Source of the DNA: Methanomicrobiales archaeon HGW-Methanomicrobiales-3
GTDB lineage: Archaea > Halobacteriota > Methanomicrobia > Methanomicrobiales > Methanospirillaceae
DNA: 64,000 bases
Assembly (NCBI GenBank): GCA_002839605.1
Contig: PGYK01000009.1
Coordinates: forward strand, 1 to 64,000
Direction: 5' to 3'
Under the pieces are notes generated by a model. That model did not search any database. It was not told the DNA's origin and was given only the letters and a program-made list of their open reading frames with translations. This document shows, in pieces, positions 41,920 through 50,280 of the stretch; the first letter of the stretch is position 1; every line of letters starts with the position of its first letter. A program made the translations under genes and the position numbers.

Positions 41920-42696
41920 TTATTCAGATCCCCTCTGCTTTCTCTCTAAAGCCAGTGCGACAATCTTCTCCGCAAGCGCTCTCACCGCTACCCGCGCCGG
42001 GCTTTCTTTTTGGATACGTGATACCGGCAGAGCGTTCAGGTCTGCCTCTTCAACCGCCGGGTCATCAGGAATGATCGCGATGGGTTCCTCGTTCCCGAAA
42101 TCAATGGGCGCGGTACCTCCTTTGTACTGGTTGAAGACCACCCTGATCTTCTCGTTCGGAAGCCCGAGCTGGGTTGCGATCTCACGAATCCTTGCAATCG
42201 TGCGGAGTCCCCGGGCACCGGGATCGCTCACAACCAGGAGGAGGTCCGGTGTGCCAATGGTACCCCGGGCGATATGCTCCATCCCCGCTTCGGTATCAAT
42301 GACAATGAAATGATAATCCCGTTCGAGATCCTTCATGCATTCCGAGAGCAGGTCATTGGCAAAGCAGTAACACCCTCTCCCTTCAGGCCGACCCATGGCA
42401 ACGAGATCGAATCCTTCCGATTCCACAAGAGACTGCCGGAAACGGAGCCGGACATAATCGTGCCTGCTCATCCCCGGAGGGATAGTGCGCCCGAATGCTT
42501 CTTCGCGCATACTGCCCAGCGTCTCCTGAACCGAAACTCCCAGCGCTTCGTGGAGGTTCGCATTCGGATCGGCATCGACAGCGAGCACGGGTTTTTCGTT
42601 CAGGTCAATAAAGGCACGGACGAGCAGGGAGCTGGTCGTGGTCTTACCGGTCCCGCCTTTTCCGGATAGCGCGATGGTGAAAGGTCTCTTTGGCAT
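41920..42696 (-). CDS. cooC: CooC-type ATPase for nickel/CODH-ACS maturation
   Basis: 258 residues. Deviant Walker A SGKGGTGKTTTS (11-22), the CxC metal motif GCYCFAND (C109, C111) and FIVIDTEAGMEH identify a CooC/AcsF-type MinD-like ATPase. It helps insert nickel into CO dehydrogenase or acetyl-CoA synthase. It is the last gene of the acs operon, 28 bp after the methionine-synthase-like gene. With only acetyl-CoA synthase in this operon, its target here may be the A-cluster. Confidence 0.9.
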   Translation of the reverse strand: MPKRPFTIALSGKGGTGKTTTSSLLVRAFIDLNEKPVLAVDADPNANLHEALGVSVQETLGSMREEAFGRTIPPGMSRHDYVRLRFRQSLVESEGFDLVAMGRPEGRGCYCFANDLLSECMKDLERDYHFIVIDTEAGMEHIARGTIGTPDLLLVVSDPGARGLRTIARIREIATQLGLPNEKIRVVFNQYKGGTAPIDFGNEEPIAIIPDDPAVEEADLNALPVSRIQKESPARVAVRALAEKIVALALERKQRGSE

Positions 42697-42724
42697 GGTG
42701 TCATCTCCCGACTATCTCGCCCAC

Positions 42725-43768
42725 TTACAGGTGCTTTTTCCGGATACGTCGGGAAATTTCTGCAGCAGCATCCATGATCGCAACCGAACCGTCCCGGTCG
42801 GCAAACCGGATCCCGCAGCTGGGAGTGATGAGCGACTGGGCATCAAAGAGTTTTTCGGGCATCCGGGTGCATAGCTGCGTCCGGATAGCGAGATATTTCC
42901 CGTACAGGGAATCGACCGTCTCTGTTGCAAAGATCTTCTGCTCTGCCGGCACAATTCCCCACGCGATGACGCCGCCGCGCTCCATGTAGGAGGCGATTGT
43001 ATCAGCATAGAGCAGGAACTCTGTCGCGGTTGCATACGCGTCAAGGGAGATGACCGCAGGGTCAAGGCTGACAACGAATTCCCAGTCCGTGTTGGAACAG
43101 CAATGAACTCCCAAACCCCCGGTGACCATGGATGCGATGTCCGCCCAGCCTGACCGGATCGTCTCCTTGTCAAGAGGAACAACCGAGGATCCCAAAGAAG
43201 CAAGGTAAGGCTCATTGAGGACAACGAGCGTCTCGCCAACACCCGTATTCTTCCGCATCTCCTCCTCGCACCACCGGGCCTTGAGTGCAATCATCTTGGA
43301 GAGGACATCGGCAAGCTGCGTATCGTAATAGATGGGGCGCTTGTCTGCATCTACAACCTGCATACCAAAAGTGACCGGCCCGGTAACCTGGCACTTGAGC
43401 ACCTGCGCCGAGGGGATCTTCCGGCCCATCATCTCGATGAATGCCGACGCATACTCCTCATGAAGGCCATAGGATGAGAAATCACCTTCAACAAAATCCA
43501 TGTACACTTTTTCCATTGCGGCGGTCTGGTCCCGGGTACTGTCGAAGAGGAGTCGGTCTTCCCGGATCACTCTTCCCGGGAGCTGCTCGGAGTCATTGAA
43601 GACGATGCCTTCAAGCAGTGCCCGGTTCGGGAGGGTCGGAATGTACGGAAATTCCGGAAAAATTGCCAGAACATCGTCGCAGGCCTGCACGGGATCCGTG
43701 TGGGGGAGACCTCCGATTCCGGTTGCAAGTGAATGGGGCGGGGGGATCATCTTTGCCATTACGATCAC
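42725..43768 (-). CDS. core methionine-synthase-like methyltransferase (MetE/UROD-like barrel)
   Basis: 347 residues from 43768; M4 or M7 are possible starts. ATGIGGLPHTDP opens it, then LKCQVTGPVTFGMQV, VVLNEPYLASLGSS, VHCCSNTDW and LITPSCGIRF. The likely zinc ligands are H222, C224 and C318, matching MetE's HxC...C set. It lacks the N-terminal folate-binding half of MetE. Core methionine synthases of types MesB/MesC are predicted to take methyl groups from the corrinoid Fe-S protein in organisms with the Wood-Ljungdahl pathway; placement between RACo and cooC fits this. The MesB/MesC assignment itself is inference. ATGA overlap with the RACo gene. Confidence 0.82.
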   Translation of the reverse strand: MIVMAKMIPPPHSLATGIGGLPHTDPVQACDDVLAIFPEFPYIPTLPNRALLEGIVFNDSEQLPGRVIREDRLLFDSTRDQTAAMEKVYMDFVEGDFSSYGLHEEYASAFIEMMGRKIPSAQVLKCQVTGPVTFGMQVVDADKRPIYYDTQLADVLSKMIALKARWCEEEMRKNTGVGETLVVLNEPYLASLGSSVVPLDKETIRSGWADIASMVTGGLGVHCCSNTDWEFVVSLDPAVISLDAYATATEFLLYADTIASYMERGGVIAWGIVPAEQKIFATETVDSLYGKYLAIRTQLCTRMPEKLFDAQSLITPSCGIRFADRDGSVAIMDAAAEISRRIRKKHL

Positions 43769-45666
43769 CCCTTCCTGAGCCGGCAGGTCTCAAGCATCTT
43801 CTGGACCTCGGGAAAGAGGGTGAGATCCGTGTGCGGCAGGAACGAACTTGACGTATACTCGTCCATGAAAGCGTTCTCGGCATTGAGTTCGATGTAGCCG
43901 ATCTTATGGGCAATCTCGTCAAGCTGCTTTCGAACCCTCCGGTTGACCAGGGCAATATTTGCTCCCACAACGGCCCCGTTGCCGAGGTTATGGATCTGGT
44001 TGATCTCAATTTCCGGAATGAGACCGATGGTTGTTGCATTCTTCTTGTCAAGGTAGTTGCCAAACGCACCGGCAAAATAGATGGTCGAGATCTCGTGGCG
44101 CGAGATCCCTGCCTCCTTCATGAGCGTGACGCAGGCAGCATGGATGGATGCTTTACTCATGATAAGGTTCTTGATATCATTCTCCGTGATGACAATGTCT
44201 TTGTTAATATCGGTCTCCTTTGCCCAGGCAATAACAAATTCCGGGAAATGGTTGATCTTCCGGATCCGCGGATTATCGATTTCGGTGTTGATACGACCAG
44301 TCCGGTCGATTACGCACGTCTCGAGAAGCTCGGCCAGAAGGTCGATGAGGCCCGAACCGCAGATGCCCCGGGGTTTAATATTATTTATCGTGGTAAATTT
44401 CGGGTTGAGCGTCCCGGCGTCGATTGTTATCTTCTCGATCGCCCCGGGGTTTGCCCGCATCCCGAAGAGCACCTCGCCGCCCTCAAGTGCCGGACCGGCT
44501 GCGCCGGCACACGAGAACATCCATTCTTTGTTTCCGAGCACAACTTCAAAGTTGGTCCCGATATCGATCAAAAGCGAGATCTCATCGCGTTCAGCCATAC
44601 CACAGGCAAGGATGTCGGCGATAATGTCGCCACCGATGAAGTCGCTGACTGCGGGGAATGCAAAAAGGCCCCCGTTCGGGTTGCAGGCAATACCTATCCG
44701 GCTGGCTGCAACCGAAAGGGCACGGCGCACAACCGGAACATAGGGTTCGGCTATCATGTAGGCAGGATCGATTCCAAGGAGCATGTGGGTCATGACCGTG
44801 TTTCCGGCCACCACCACTTCATAGATATCATCCCGGTCAATGCCCGCCGTGTTGCAGGCAGATGTTATTGCCGAGTTGATACTCTCGGTTGCAAGTGTCT
44901 GGAGCCGGGTCAGCCCGTTCTTTCGCGCATAATTCACCCGCGCAAGGATGTCCTCGCCACAGCTGATCTGCTTGTTGTAGTTCGAGGCAACCCCGACTAC
45001 TTTTCCGGAGACAAGATCCCAGAGATAGACAACAACCGTTGTCGAGCCAAGATCCACGGCGGCACCGTAAACCCGCCCGGACGTGTCGTTCTCCTGCAGA
45101 TCAATGCAGCGGTACCCGCCCGGGACAAGACCGATCGTTGCAGTAACTTTCCAGTCGCTGTGCCGGAGGATAGAGGGGATCTCCCGGAGCACTTCGAGAG
45201 GGACATACATCTTCTCCGCTTCCGGGCCGCCGCTCTTCTGGATGCCCCAGAGAAGTCGCGAGAGATCCGGGGAGGGATCGCCCAATGTCGGGGGGTGAAG
45301 TTCGACAAAATATTTTTTTACCGATGGGCGGAAATCAATCGGGTTGTCCTCCCCTTCAATGAGGATCTTCTGTTCCTGGATGAGGGTGCTCTCGGGAACC
45401 ATCACCTGAAGATCGCCCTGCACGAGCGTCTCGCAGGCAAGACAGGCCCCTTTTGAGAGTTCTTCTGCGGTAAAGAAGCGGCCGTATTTCTGTGCATCAA
45501 ACTCGGTCTTGCCGGACTGGATATAGACCACGCATTTGCCGCACTTGCCCTGGCCCCCGCAGACAACATTCATGTTCAGGCCGGCCCGCTGGGCAGCGTC
45601 AAGGATCGTTGTCCCGCGTACTACTTCGATCTTCCGGTAACTGGGAAGAAATGTTACGGTTCGCAT
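43765..45666 (-). CDS. acsV: RACo, ATP-dependent reductive activator of the corrinoid Fe-S protein
   Basis: 633 residues. The N terminus is a plant-type [2Fe-2S] ferredoxin domain with C36, C42, C45 and C78 (CGGQGKCGKC and CLACET). A linker follows, then an ASKHA ATPase with AAVDLGSTTVVVYL, VVAGNTVMTHMLLG, LLIDIGTNFEVVLG and YFAGAFGNYL. RACo re-reduces the inactive Co(II) corrinoid to Co(I) using ATP. It is typical of bacterial acetogens and found with AcsCD. It lies ~105 bp after the gamma-subunit gene. Confidence 0.92.
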   Translation of the reverse strand: MRTVTFLPSYRKIEVVRGTTILDAAQRAGLNMNVVCGGQGKCGKCVVYIQSGKTEFDAQKYGRFFTAEELSKGACLACETLVQGDLQVMVPESTLIQEQKILIEGEDNPIDFRPSVKKYFVELHPPTLGDPSPDLSRLLWGIQKSGGPEAEKMYVPLEVLREIPSILRHSDWKVTATIGLVPGGYRCIDLQENDTSGRVYGAAVDLGSTTVVVYLWDLVSGKVVGVASNYNKQISCGEDILARVNYARKNGLTRLQTLATESINSAITSACNTAGIDRDDIYEVVVAGNTVMTHMLLGIDPAYMIAEPYVPVVRRALSVAASRIGIACNPNGGLFAFPAVSDFIGGDIIADILACGMAERDEISLLIDIGTNFEVVLGNKEWMFSCAGAAGPALEGGEVLFGMRANPGAIEKITIDAGTLNPKFTTINNIKPRGICGSGLIDLLAELLETCVIDRTGRINTEIDNPRIRKINHFPEFVIAWAKETDINKDIVITENDIKNLIMSKASIHAACVTLMKEAGISRHEISTIYFAGAFGNYLDKKNATTIGLIPEIEINQIHNLGNGAVVGANIALVNRRVRKQLDEIAHKIGYIELNAENAFMDEYTSSSFLPHTDLTLFPEVQKMLETCRLRKG

Positions 45667-45772
45667 AGATGGAATCCCTTCTCGTTTTTACCATTGGGAA
45701 ATATGAGTGAAATATTCTCCGGTGAGGGACAATCTCCCACACCGGAATACTATCAGGATAAAACCCCGGATC

Positions 45773-47137
45773 TCATTCCGGAGGAGAACCGGCACCCTGC
45801 TCTTTTTTCCATTCCTCGTGGAGGTAGTCGCCGATCTCCGCGGCATCGCGGGGACCGACAAGCACTTTCCAGCCGGTTGCATCTTCAATCCGGCCGGACA
45901 GAGGCGAGGCATAGCCGGGAATGATCATCTTCCGGTGGGTCACCTCATTCTCCACACCGAATTTCTTAATTGAATCCCGCACCAGCATCTCGCTCAGTTT
46001 TCCCGCTGCAACTGCGGTAAGGACCGATAACCCTTCCGTGTCAACGATCAGCATGAAACAGGGGATGCGGCTGGATTCAAGATACCCCTGGAGGGTGAAG
46101 AAGGTGAGCGAGAAGTTCACCGTCATCAGTACCGGGGCATTCTTGTCCGGGGAACCGACACGGTACAGGCCGGGGGTCATCTGGATCGGCTTCTGGGGAT
46201 CGGTATAGATGTTCTGGCGGAGAGTCAGGGCAGCCTTTGCCGAGCCGGGAGTTAAGGGCCGCGTCACGATGACGGACGCGTATTTGGTGATGCCAAGAGC
46301 AATTGCAGCATCCGGCTGCCCGGTAGATGCGGTATCCAGGTAGACCGGGTACCCGAGTTCGGGAATCGTACGGGTAATGGCCAGCTGCCGTATCTCGGTC
46401 GATCGGATCAGGAAATCGCCCAGGGACGCAGGTTTGGGATCGAGTACCAGGTCCTGCACGCCTTCCTGAGCACACTCTTTTGCCAGCCGGACCAGACCTT
46501 CGATGGTTTCCGACTGGATGACCAGCGGGCACCCGTGCTTCTTTGCAAGGGCGCACATCCCGTTGAAATTCTCTGCTGTTGCTGCATGCAGCAGCGGGCG
46601 GTACGTACCGCAATGGACAAGCCCTGCTGCAAAAGCAGCCGGGTCTTTTGCAATGAGTACGGGAGGAAGATGGGCCTGTTCGCCCTCCACGGCGGCAACT
46701 GCCCGTCCAAAGACTTCCGGAGATCCGCTCCGGTTTTCAATGGCAATGCCGTTGAACCGGAGATCGGAGCCAACCCGGGTCAGCGTCTCGTCACGGACTC
46801 TGCGGGTTACGGCCGCAATCTCCTCAACAGGCATTGTGTCATCCACGGAAAAGAGGATGCCGGGCGGGTGATAGAACGTCTTCTCATGACGATACAGGAC
46901 ATTCTCCTCGCCAACCTTGACCAGCCGCTCCCCAAAGCCAATCCGTATAAGCCGGATAGGTGGGCGGGTTGAAGCCCCGAGCAGTGCTTTTGCCGCATCG
47001 TCAAGGTACGGGCAGAGGTCAACATCCGCTTTTCCCCCGGCCAGCTTCATGGCAAACGTCAGGCAGGTGGGATCCCCGCATTCCTTGCAGTTCTTCTTCG
47101 GGAGGAGCTTGTAAATGTCGAGTGCCTTGAGTGCCAT
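45773..47137 (-). CDS. cdhE: corrinoid Fe-S protein large (gamma) subunit
   Basis: 454 residues. The N-terminal domain binds one [4Fe-4S] cluster through C17, C20, C25 and C42 (KNCKECGDPTC and DLCPYL). The middle is a TIM-barrel and the C-terminal part binds the corrinoid (IVDTEGLSVLTAVAAGKLS). It is AcsC of acetogens and CdhE of archaea. It carries the methyl group to acetyl-CoA synthase. It begins one base after the delta-subunit gene ends, in the same operon. Confidence 0.95.
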   Translation of the reverse strand: MALKALDIYKLLPKKNCKECGDPTCLTFAMKLAGGKADVDLCPYLDDAAKALLGASTRPPIRLIRIGFGERLVKVGEENVLYRHEKTFYHPPGILFSVDDTMPVEEIAAVTRRVRDETLTRVGSDLRFNGIAIENRSGSPEVFGRAVAAVEGEQAHLPPVLIAKDPAAFAAGLVHCGTYRPLLHAATAENFNGMCALAKKHGCPLVIQSETIEGLVRLAKECAQEGVQDLVLDPKPASLGDFLIRSTEIRQLAITRTIPELGYPVYLDTASTGQPDAAIALGITKYASVIVTRPLTPGSAKAALTLRQNIYTDPQKPIQMTPGLYRVGSPDKNAPVLMTVNFSLTFFTLQGYLESSRIPCFMLIVDTEGLSVLTAVAAGKLSEMLVRDSIKKFGVENEVTHRKMIIPGYASPLSGRIEDATGWKVLVGPRDAAEIGDYLHEEWKKEQGAGSPPE

Positions 47138-47138
47138 A

Positions 47139-48104
47139 TTACGGCACCTCCGCAGCAGTGGAGCTCGTTTTCATACCGGCAAATGCTTCGCGCAGGAGCC
47201 CGATGGTCTTCGGGTGGCGGACACAGATGATCTCTGCACCGGCAACTGCCGCCGCAACACCGGTATAGAATTCCCAGGCAACCGCAACATCATCGATTGA
47301 TGCGGGATCGGCTTCACGCACTTCCTTGATGGTGAGCGTGTCCGCAGCGGAACAGATCATCGGCATCGCGAGATCCGTATCCCCTTTGAGGGCAGAGAAC
47401 CGGATCCGTTCCATGGCGGAGTAGGAGTATTCGAAGCCGTACCCGAGCGAACCGGTGTAGGGGTCAATGACGATATGATCCCGCTGGACGCCGATCTCGC
47501 GCAGAAGAATGTTGAGCTGTTTTGCAAGATTGATATCAATGGGTGACTGGGCGATGATGGAATGATTATAGGCAAGCGCAGCAGCAGCAATGCTCCGGTA
47601 CCGCCCGGCTTCCGCAGTGCCGAGAAGGAGTCGTTCTCCCTCTCCGGCTTCGCCGCATTTTAAGAACACCTCACTGTCGATCTTTGGTTCATTGCTGCCT
47701 TCGATGATAAGCGGCAGGCTGGTTGCCGAAAGGACGGCTTCAACGGTTTTTTGAACAGAAGCGATATCGGAAAAATTCCGTACTTTCGTGCTGGTGAGGT
47801 GGAGTTTTACCAGATCCGCCTGATAATCACTCGTGGCAGCTTTTGCCCAATCAGTCGTACTGTTTACCAGGTCACCGCAATAGTTCCGGATTATCGGCGA
47901 CCAGAAATCAGGATTATCGCAGATCTCAAACGCGATAAGCGGGGTGGGCGATGCGGGAGCATTTTTTAGAAACGGGAGCGTTGTTCCACCACCAATACGG
48001 TAGGATGTGCTCCGTGTCCCCCCGTCATCTCTTGTTGCCCCGAGTGTCACTTCACCGATTGTGCCGGTCCATCCAAAGGAGAGATCGTGAGTCATGGTTT
48101 TCAC
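47139..48104 (-). CDS. cdhD: corrinoid Fe-S protein small (delta) subunit
   Basis: 321 residues. The TIM-barrel pattern with LIAFEICDNPDFWSPIIRNYC, LPLIIEGSNEPKID and IVIDPYTGSLGYGFEYSYSAMERIR is that of AcsD/CdhD. It pairs with the gamma subunit to hold the corrinoid. Start overlaps the acetyl-CoA synthase stop by four bases. Confidence 0.95.
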   Translation of the reverse strand: MKTMTHDLSFGWTGTIGEVTLGATRDDGGTRSTSYRIGGGTTLPFLKNAPASPTPLIAFEICDNPDFWSPIIRNYCGDLVNSTTDWAKAATSDYQADLVKLHLTSTKVRNFSDIASVQKTVEAVLSATSLPLIIEGSNEPKIDSEVFLKCGEAGEGERLLLGTAEAGRYRSIAAAALAYNHSIIAQSPIDINLAKQLNILLREIGVQRDHIVIDPYTGSLGYGFEYSYSAMERIRFSALKGDTDLAMPMICSAADTLTIKEVREADPASIDDVAVAWEFYTGVAAAVAGAEIICVRHPKTIGLLREAFAGMKTSSTAAEVP

Positions 48105-50131
48105 ATCAGTGGTTTCATGGCAAGAGCCGGGTGCTCCACACGCTCGAGAAATACCGTAAGATCCTCGATCGTCGTCGCGGTATTCTCATCAGCGATCTTT
48201 TCAAAGAATCCGGCTTTTCCTTTATCTGAGAGTATCTTCTCAAGCCGGCTTTTCAGCTCTTCTTTGAGCTGGGATGGCATCCAGACGAGTCGTTCGATCC
48301 CGCCCTCGCCCTGTAAGAACCGGTCAGACAGAACAAAGTTCTTTGCAATCCCGGCAAACCCCGGGGTCTGGGCTCCGCCGCCGATTGTTCCGGCGAGGGT
48401 CGAGAAGGTCATACCGGAGGGAGTGATTCCGGTAAACTCGCGATTCACGACCATGATGCCGTTCACTTCCGGCAGCATGAGGGCAATAGCCTCAAAACAC
48501 CCGCAGCAGGTCATGGGATATTCCATCACGCTGTAGAGCGAGATGCGCTCGATCTCACCGTGGCTTGCCTTCTTGACAAACCTGTTCACTCCCTCATATT
48601 CCCCGTTCTGGAGATTGAGCACTGCACCTTTCTCCACCGGCTGGTTGGCGCCGGATGGTGATATCTCGAACGCAATCCTGCCATCAAGCCAGCTGAGCGC
48701 CCCGCAGAGCCCCATCCGTTCGGGGGTGATGACACAGACATGGTTGGGGGCAAAGGTCTGGCAGAGCGTGCAGGAGTAGTAGGTGTTCACCTCATTATCC
48801 TTCATCCCCTTGATCCGGGCATCGCGTTCCTCATAGACCCGTTCTGCTTCCTTTTTTGCTTCCAGGATTTTTTGCGGATCCGTGATGAGCGTAACAGAGA
48901 CTGCTTCAAGAAGCTGGGGGAAGTCCATCCGGAACTTGCTTGCCAGCAGTTTTCCGATATGCTCGATCTTCACTCCTTTTGCCACGGCCTCTTTGGAGAG
49001 CCGGACCCAGATGAGATCCCGCTGGGCCACGTGCCATGATCCTTCGCCATAGTTCACGAAATTATGAATACGTCGTTCAAGGACCGGCTCGTAATCCTTC
49101 TTCATGGTCTTTCCGGCAACATCGATGATGATGCCCAGCGGGTTGGCACTTCCCTGGACCATGGTATCGACTTCCATCCCGATGACCGTCACTTCACCAT
49201 CCGTGATTTCGCTGGCATCCCGCATCCGGAGAAGTTCGAACGCGGTGGATCTCCCGCCCCCGAACTCGACATACATCTCCTCCTTGCGGATACTTTTCCC
49301 TTCGAACGCGGGCGAGCATCCCATCGGGATGGGAATTGCAGTGACGTTGACACGGATCCCTTTCTCTTCCATTCCTCTCCGGACAATATCTTCGGCACCC
49401 GCGGTAATCCATGTTCCACCCTCATAGCCCCCGGGAGTGAGAATCGGAAATCCCAGTACCCGCATCCCGTCAACAAACGCGATCTCCTCATCGGAGAGGC
49501 CGGGGAAGACGATGACAATGGCCTTTGCCCGTTCCGCCGCATAATGGAGCAGGCGGTGCATATCCCCGGGTGTGACCCCGCCAAACATCATGGCAACACG
49601 GGCAATAATGTCCACAAAATGGATCCCGTACACGGATTTGGAGCCAAGCGGGATGAGACGGTAATCAAGACCGAGTTTCACGCCGGAATTCAGAAGAACT
49701 GGAATAACATCTCCGGCAAGGAATGTCAGCATATATTTTTCCTGGAGTTCCCGGCAGATCGCTGCAGCACTGTCTGCATTGGCGGGTTTTCCCAGGATGA
49801 GAGCAAGCCCGAGGATGCTCCCGTCAACAAGCGAGTACCCGAGTTTCCGGATAACGGTATCGCTGATGAAACCGGTGAAGGGTTCGGGCTCTTTTCCGGC
49901 TGATGCTGTTTGTGCTGCCAGCAGACACTCCGAAGCGACAATCGGGTTGTTTCCGGTCTTTGCATATACCTCCTGTGCCCCGGGCTTGTCGTGGACGGCA
50001 ATGCCGGTCAGGGCAAATGAGATCGGGAGGTGGTAGGCCGTATCGTCATAGGTGAATGATCCTGACAATGCAGGAACTTTTATTTGCAGCTCTTGATCAC
50101 CATGTTTTCTGGCGAATTCAACGTCGGTCAT
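48101..50131 (-). CDS. acsB: acetyl-CoA synthase, bacterial architecture
   Basis: 676 residues from the ATG at 50131; the open frame to 50215 adds 28 residues unlike family starts. A-cluster cysteines are C454, C457, C466, C476, C543 and C545. Their spacing (3, 9, 10, 67, 2) is exactly that of Moorella AcsB (C506-C597). About 450 residues precede the first of them, so the N-terminal domain that binds CO dehydrogenase in bacteria is present; archaeal CdhC lacks it and has its first cysteine before residue 200. The protein is ~50 residues shorter than Moorella AcsB. It joins a methyl group, CO and CoA to acetyl-CoA. It leads the operon, but no CO dehydrogenase gene is present. Confidence 0.93.
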   Translation of the reverse strand: MTDVEFARKHGDQELQIKVPALSGSFTYDDTAYHLPISFALTGIAVHDKPGAQEVYAKTGNNPIVASECLLAAQTASAGKEPEPFTGFISDTVIRKLGYSLVDGSILGLALILGKPANADSAAAICRELQEKYMLTFLAGDVIPVLLNSGVKLGLDYRLIPLGSKSVYGIHFVDIIARVAMMFGGVTPGDMHRLLHYAAERAKAIVIVFPGLSDEEIAFVDGMRVLGFPILTPGGYEGGTWITAGAEDIVRRGMEEKGIRVNVTAIPIPMGCSPAFEGKSIRKEEMYVEFGGGRSTAFELLRMRDASEITDGEVTVIGMEVDTMVQGSANPLGIIIDVAGKTMKKDYEPVLERRIHNFVNYGEGSWHVAQRDLIWVRLSKEAVAKGVKIEHIGKLLASKFRMDFPQLLEAVSVTLITDPQKILEAKKEAERVYEERDARIKGMKDNEVNTYYSCTLCQTFAPNHVCVITPERMGLCGALSWLDGRIAFEISPSGANQPVEKGAVLNLQNGEYEGVNRFVKKASHGEIERISLYSVMEYPMTCCGCFEAIALMLPEVNGIMVVNREFTGITPSGMTFSTLAGTIGGGAQTPGFAGIAKNFVLSDRFLQGEGGIERLVWMPSQLKEELKSRLEKILSDKGKAGFFEKIADENTATTIEDLTVFLERVEHPALAMKPLM

Positions 50132-50163: not shown

Positions 50164-50182
50164 GTAAGATAGATATAGTTTC
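50164..50182 (-). promoter_or_regulatory. probable TATA element for the acs operon
   Basis: On the minus strand AACTATATCTATC lies about 45 bp before the acsB ATG, giving a leader of ~20 nt. The region also lies upstream of the divergent surface-protein gene. Confidence 0.38.
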
Positions 50183-50280
50183 GTTATAGGGTAGAGATCC
50201 TGTCTCAATCAGCAAAAACAGAATGATGACAAAAAGATATTCATTCGCAATGATAATCTCTTACCATAAAAGGGACATTC

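Follow-up and report, generated by a model that had tools for sequence, protein, structure and literature searches.

The window analysed here is a stretch of 64,000 nucleotides from Methanomicrobiales archaeon HGW-Methanomicrobiales-3 (G000:C3:1-64000, contig PGYK01000009.1), whose assembly comprises 2.59 Mb in 18 contigs and is 98% complete. At 41,920-50,131 it holds a six-gene operon, acsB-cdhD-cdhE-RACo-mesB-cooC, that combines an acetyl-CoA synthase (ACS), a corrinoid iron-sulfur protein (CoFeSP) and a protein resembling core methionine synthases. An original prediction, made from these letters, described it as a bacterial-type ACS operon without carbon monoxide dehydrogenase (CODH), and its account of the locus stands: all six genes lie on the minus strand in the predicted order and follow one another with short overlaps or gaps, the junctions from acsB to cooC being -4, +1, +106, -4 and +28 bp. 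The features are as follows.

48101..50131, minus strand: acsB, A-cluster subunit of a bacterial-type acetyl-CoA synthase, 676 aa from ATG (NF040764, PDB ACS matches, tree)
47139..48104, minus strand: cdhD/acsD, CoFeSP small subunit, 321 aa (NF003376, PDB CoFeSP small subunits)
45773..47137, minus strand: cdhE/acsC, CoFeSP large subunit, 454 aa (NF003195, Carboxydothermus hydrogenoformans CoFeSP, tree)
43765..45666, minus strand: reductive activator of CoFeSP, RACo/AcsV type, 633 aa (four Pfam domains, PDB 3zyy)
42725..43768, minus strand: mesB-like gene for a core methionine synthase consisting of the MetE catalytic barrel alone, 347 aa from GTG (AlphaFold/Foldseek, zinc ligands)
41920..42696, minus strand: cooC/acsF-type nickel-insertion ATPase, 258 aa (CbiA/AAA_31 domains)
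50170..50187, minus strand: operon promoter ATAACGAAACTATATCTA, resembling a TFB recognition element and TATA box (upstream comparison with relatives)

AcsB is a bacterial-type ACS by family score (NF040764, 904 bits against a curated cut-off of 800), including the N-terminal domain that the original prediction had ascribed to it. We placed its start at the ATG at 50131, the same residue at which many relatives start; a longer frame from a TTG, reaching to 50215, was set aside since that start is not common to relatives. The six A-cluster cysteines (residues 454, 457, 466, 476, 543 and 545) align with those of C. hydrogenoformans ACS, are invariant in 24 aligned sequences and are spaced 3-9-10-67-2, which is the spacing of Moorella ACS. 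The N-terminal region departs from that of ACSs that are paired with or fused to CODH. About 16-20 residues of its helical part are missing in 20 of 20 operon AcsBs, and two aligned anchor points lie 56 residues apart in the operon protein against 76 in C. hydrogenoformans ACS. Residues 29-110 are also the least conserved and fastest-evolving part of the protein, with 34-48% identity within the clade against 60-75% elsewhere, and correspond to the region that holds the CODH-docking helices in Moorella ACS. Because the ACS N-terminal domain contacts CODH in the Moorella structures, the deletion may remove CODH contacts.

The remaining subunits fit the same assembly. CdhE scores 542 bits with NF003195 (cut-off 306) and 389 bits against the CoFeSP of C. 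hydrogenoformans, and CdhD scores 361 bits with NF003376 (cut-off 280). The RACo protein has all of the Fer2, RACo_linker, Raco_middle and RACo_C_ter domains and matches PDB 3zyy at 523 bits; with the AcsV family NF040756 it reaches 570 bits, under the curated cut-off of 800. CooC is a P-loop ATPase of the CooC type, 38% identical to the acsB-adjacent CooC of Acetoanaerobium and 29-30% identical to two CooC proteins from an archaeal operon of the same genome. The RACo protein is about equally distant from both sides, with 35% identity to bacterial homologues and 36% to an archaeal homologue in its own genome.

The fifth gene encodes a protein (P0002) with no match in Pfam or NCBIfam, and searches of solved structures by sequence, with a single or a profile query, returned nothing for it. 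Its AlphaFold model (pLDDT 94.5) is matched by Foldseek first to cobalamin-independent methionine synthases and then to uroporphyrinogen decarboxylases, with TM-scores of about 0.6, and corresponds to a single barrel, the catalytic one of MetE, lacking the N-terminal domain that binds folate. An alternative in-frame ATG at 43759 would yield 344 aa. All 50 relatives compared keep the zinc ligands H222, C224, D243 and C318, which form the HCDC pattern described for characterised MesB (PMC7857596). CoFeSP is the predicted methyl donor of MesB in the same study (PMC7857596), and here cdhD and cdhE lie in the same operon as the mesB-like gene.

Phylogenetic analysis places these proteins apart from archaeal Cdh subunits. 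The ACS core tree gathers the operon AcsBs into a single clade (100/99), which falls on the bacterial side and is parted by a 100/100 branch from 21 archaeal CdhC proteins, that of the same genome included. A CdhE tree with three bacterial CoFeSP proteins shows the same split, with the operon CdhE on the bacterial side (100/100). For these two subunits, the trees do not show the placement within archaeal CdhC/D/E that would have contradicted the original prediction, and its reading of AcsB and CoFeSP as bacterial in type is upheld. The trees cover AcsB and CdhE, are in substance unrooted and include only two or three bacterial sequences each, so they support the bacterial type rather than a donor or a date of transfer. 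A scan of genome contigs for the MesB-like gene, taken to its best 80 loci, gave essentially only Methanomicrobiales, and the bacterial sampling in the trees is therefore thin; the closest named matches among these loci belong to Methanoregula. Across a phylum-wide sample of 295 genomes, this type of AcsB is confined to Methanomicrobiales. The predicted transfer of the module is plausible but not fresh, since the operon is conserved across much of the order.

The operon AcsB shares its side of the ACS core tree with a CODH-ACS fusion protein from another family of Halobacteriota. In this fusion of 1,350-1,400 aa, a CooS/AcsA-type CODH (TIGR01702, 719 bits) is joined to a full AcsB (NF040764, 939 bits); it is found at L179:4164-8297 on the minus strand and also at L180, L181 and L183, in genomes of family f7, genus g35 (G120, G138, G155 and G129), with cdhD and cdhE adjoining. 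The Acetoanaerobium acs cluster that served as a reference in our comparisons comes from a plasmid collection; its record, NZ_CP154629.1, is 2.6 Mb long and probably a mislabelled chromosome.

The operon lacks acsA, acsE, cdhA and cdhB, as had been predicted, but the genome has a complete archaeal CODH/ACS operon, cooC-cooC-cdhA-cdhB-cdhC-cdhD-cdhE-RACo homologue, on contig C2 at about 61370-71920 (locus L007). Its CdhA has 784 aa and scores 1160 bits with TIGR00314. The absence of CODH is thus true of the operon and not of the genome, and the proposed status of RACo as a bacterial feature does not hold in this genome, where the archaeal operon has a RACo of its own. The two operons encode homologous ACS and CoFeSP subunits along with CooC and RACo, but the archaeal CdhC lacks the N-terminal domain, and the two sets fall into separate clades in the AcsB and CdhE trees; CdhC and AcsB are 42% identical over 406 aa, the CdhE pair 36% and the CdhD pair 32%. 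Elsewhere in the genome, a core methionine synthase of the MesA type (PF01717) lies on contig C16. No CODH of the CooS/AcsA type scored over the cut-off in the genome, the best matches being hybrid-cluster proteins. PF00809 has one member in the genome, apparently a dihydropteroate synthase whose gene adjoins folD, and therefore no AcsE-type methyltransferase route was found. On contig C17 (L204:1441-3083), adjoining dihydropteroate-synthase-like and folD genes suggest a folate pathway in this methanogen.

Had the operon been silent beside a complete archaeal one, the original prediction would have lost its force. The archaeal operon is present, and the window operon is under selection: between Methanoregula species, its ratio of nonsynonymous to synonymous substitution rates (dN/dS) is 0.06-0.11. 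Of 120 relatives, 73 have the MesB-like gene and 76 this AcsB, and in the 89 Methanomicrobiales genomes that are at least 90% complete, the two occur together in 51 and are both missing from 38, with neither ever found alone. Gene order is identical in the loci examined, among which several GC-rich ones had some operon genes masked by a simple picker of open reading frames. As members of a single operon the genes are inherited together, which partly explains the co-occurrence. The MesB-like gene is, however, also absent from four good genomes with CdhA but not this AcsB (G025, G060, G076 and G086), so it does not accompany an archaeal CODH/ACS on its own. The type of CODH is unlinked to operon presence, the 51 operon genomes having CdhA only (13), CdhA and CooS (16), CooS only (17) or neither (5). 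The five genomes without a detectable Ni-CODH (G015, G059, G061, G066 and G075) retain all six operon genes; one of them, G075, is a single contig and 99% complete, and the other four are draft assemblies in which a CODH gene could be missed. In the CODH-free pair G059/G066, operon dN/dS is 0.04-0.13 for the genes that allowed its calculation, a sign of strong purifying selection, read against dS values that are high throughout, near saturation, and saturated for cdhD.

We propose that the operon is a self-contained, CODH-independent acetyl-CoA decarbonylase and methyl-transfer module that passes methyl to a thiol, most likely homocysteine, a proposal to which we give an even chance of being right. 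AcsB would catalyse the reversible conversion of acetyl-CoA to CoA, CO and methylated CdhDE and, as we infer, would run in the direction of cleavage, turning acetyl-CoA into methyl-CoFeSP and CO. RACo would re-reduce the oxidised corrinoid of CdhDE, and the CooC/AcsF-type ATPase would load nickel into AcsB. The MesB-like enzyme would then carry methyl from the corrinoid protein to a zinc-bound thiol, most likely homocysteine, to give methionine, and the CO may leave AcsB freely or go to whatever CODH the cell has. Among the explanations considered, this one is best supported, by gene content and its conservation, the intact cysteines and zinc ligands, the co-occurrence of AcsB and MesB, the lack of a link to CODH type, the persistence of the operon under selection in genomes without detectable Ni-CODH, the trimmed AcsB, the failure to find an AcsE route and the like pathway proposed for Dehalococcoides.

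Several points weigh against it. Almost every genome of the order has MesA (114 of 120), so methionine supply does not depend on the operon, which is not its sole source. Two residues at the homocysteine-contact positions of MetE are changed in the MesB-like protein. Archaeal-type CoFeSP can accept methyl directly from methyl-tetrahydromethanopterin (methyl-H4MPT), so that acetyl-CoA need not be the methyl source. The complete archaeal CODH/ACS of the window genome could supply CO for synthesis, and in three or four relatives a cooS gene lies a few kb 3' of mesB on the same strand.

In the main rival explanation, the operon is an accessory route of acetyl-CoA synthesis, fed with methyl by methyl-H4MPT and with CO by CdhA, CooS or the environment, and the MesB-like protein is a side branch that draws off methyl for methionine. 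ACS is reversible, 46 of the 51 operon genomes have some CODH, and in G044, G050 and G058 cooS lies about 3 kb downstream of mesB. We nevertheless find this role doubtful, if possible: the operon is retained in the five genomes without detectable CODH, the N-terminal region of AcsB is trimmed, and MesB is never absent from a good genome in which AcsB is present. The idea that the downstream CooS supplies the CODH that the operon lacks was also rejected, because the open reading frame between cooC and cooS encodes an unrelated predicted membrane protein and because CooS is as common without the operon (27 of 38 genomes) as with it (33 of 51).

The thiol acceptor in the proposed decarbonylase module is most likely homocysteine. 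P0002 has G20 and N185 at the positions of MetE Ser433 and Asp599, which we located by motif and by alignment with the MesA of the same genome. Position 20 is Ala or Gly in 38 of 50 relatives and position 185 is Asn or Ser in 42 of 50; Ser20 and Asp185 occur together in only 8 of 50, and Asp185 always comes with Ser20 (8 of 8). These changes, together with a methionine supply already provided by MesA and the abundance of coenzyme M (CoM) as a methanogen thiol, raise the alternative that the MesB-like protein methylates another thiol such as CoM and that the operon links acetyl-CoA with methyl-CoM, bypassing Mtr. On the tree of Methanomicrobiales MesB, however, the two positions switch jointly between Ser with Asp and Ala/Gly with Asn/Ser at least four times, and they do so in operons with the same gene content; the locus L109 is an example of such a switch within a Methanoregula-like clade. 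Toggling of this kind is more easily explained by two coupled residues in a single pocket than by a change of substrate. Moreover, the zinc ligands are MesB-like, and nothing in the sequence was found to mark the protein as a CoM methyltransferase. We thus regard methylation of another thiol as unlikely, and find it quite improbable that the enzyme moves methyl between the operon CoFeSP and CoM or another non-homocysteine thiol so as to connect acetyl-CoA with methyl-CoM without CODH or Mtr. The original prediction of a methyl-handling module tied to a methionine-synthase-like enzyme is supported, but, with two contact residues substituted and MesA present regardless, methionine is only its most likely product.

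Parts of this system have been described before. MesB occurs in Methanomicrobiales, beside MesA in some, and mesB lies in an apparent operon with acsCD in some methanogens (Price 2021, PMC7857596); that gene cluster is very probably the same as the window operon. The text of that study does not discuss a bacterial-type AcsB, its co-occurrence with MesB, CODH independence or a trimmed N-terminus, and the Ser433 and Asp599 positions, reported there as "mostly conserved" in MesB, are changed in the window protein. In Dehalococcoides mccartyi, a route from acetyl-CoA to methionine with release of CO has been proposed, which combines ACS and CoFeSP without AcsE with a folate-independent core-MetE (MesB), with acetyl-CoA as the methyl source and CODH absent (PMC7005905). 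Here, in contrast, an archaeon carries all six genes in a single operon, whereas the core-MetE of strain CBDB1 is in an operon near genes of S-adenosylmethionine metabolism; the window genome also has CdhA with the full archaeal CODH/ACS, and MesA, and CODH is lacking only in the five relatives. Bacterial CODH/ACS clusters (Moorella, Carboxydothermus, Acetoanaerobium) share with the operon an AcsB with an N-terminal domain, AcsCD, RACo and CooC/AcsF, but the operon is without acsA and acsE, has gained mesB and encodes a shorter AcsB N-terminus. The core idea is therefore already published, and what is new is that AcsB and MesB occur together, that their presence is not tied to CODH, and how AcsB is built; a bacterial-type ACS in Methanomicrobiales may itself have been noted earlier. 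The operon would represent an archaeal, single-operon version of the pathway from acetyl-CoA through methyl-CoFeSP to methionine that has so far been argued mainly for Dehalococcoides. Moreover, several Methanomicrobiales appear to keep a working ACS without CODH, which implies that the enzyme has some task besides CO2 fixation.

A survey of methanogens found the Codh/Acs gene sets of Methanoculleus to be incomplete and took this as partial deletion (PMC8621161), a description that would fit the operon being a partly redundant or decaying remnant of CODH/ACS. The 100/100 separation of its AcsB and CdhE from archaeal Cdh shows that it did not arise by decay of the archaeal operon, and all genes are intact in many lineages, with dN/dS of 0.04-0.23 across the pairs compared, so that trees and selection disfavour decay and we hold it to be very unlikely. 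G105 and G075 have the window-type operon, and named Methanoculleus loci carry the same MesB-like gene, which suggests that the "incomplete Codh/Acs" of Methanoculleus and its relatives is a separate bacterial-type operon and not a decayed archaeal one. Cultivable Methanoculleus species put the role of the operon within experimental reach.

Relatives of the MesB-like protein outside the order are few in our data. No relatives were found on viral contigs. The threshold for assigning a protein to MesB is 130 bits by phmmer against the characterised Dehalococcoides protein. The nearest bacterial sequence at hand is encoded by a Desulfosarcina ovata plasmid (NZ_AP021877.1, L177:8992-10020; 27% identical to P0002, 136 bits), and the plasmid search gave no closer one; its gene adjoins hcp, FprA flavoprotein and nitric oxide reductase genes, and no CoFeSP genes lie near. 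A Methanoregula-like MesB contig in a betaproteobacterial metagenome-assembled genome (L160, PHCO01000101.1, labelled Betaproteobacteria HGW-18) most likely reflects binning contamination.

The promoter element 5' of acsB is kept in Methanoregula and near relatives. With up to three mismatches allowed it has a single match in the genome, and a regulon search with it across the genome gave no sites beyond that of acsB. No riboswitch or other RNA family was found 5' of the operon, the two Rfam matches in the window being tRNAs. The suspicion of an inverted repeat around the promoter was dropped after a repeat finder gave none in the window itself. In some relatives, TTACCC/GGGTAA half-sites flank the acsB promoter element on both sides and may form an operator.

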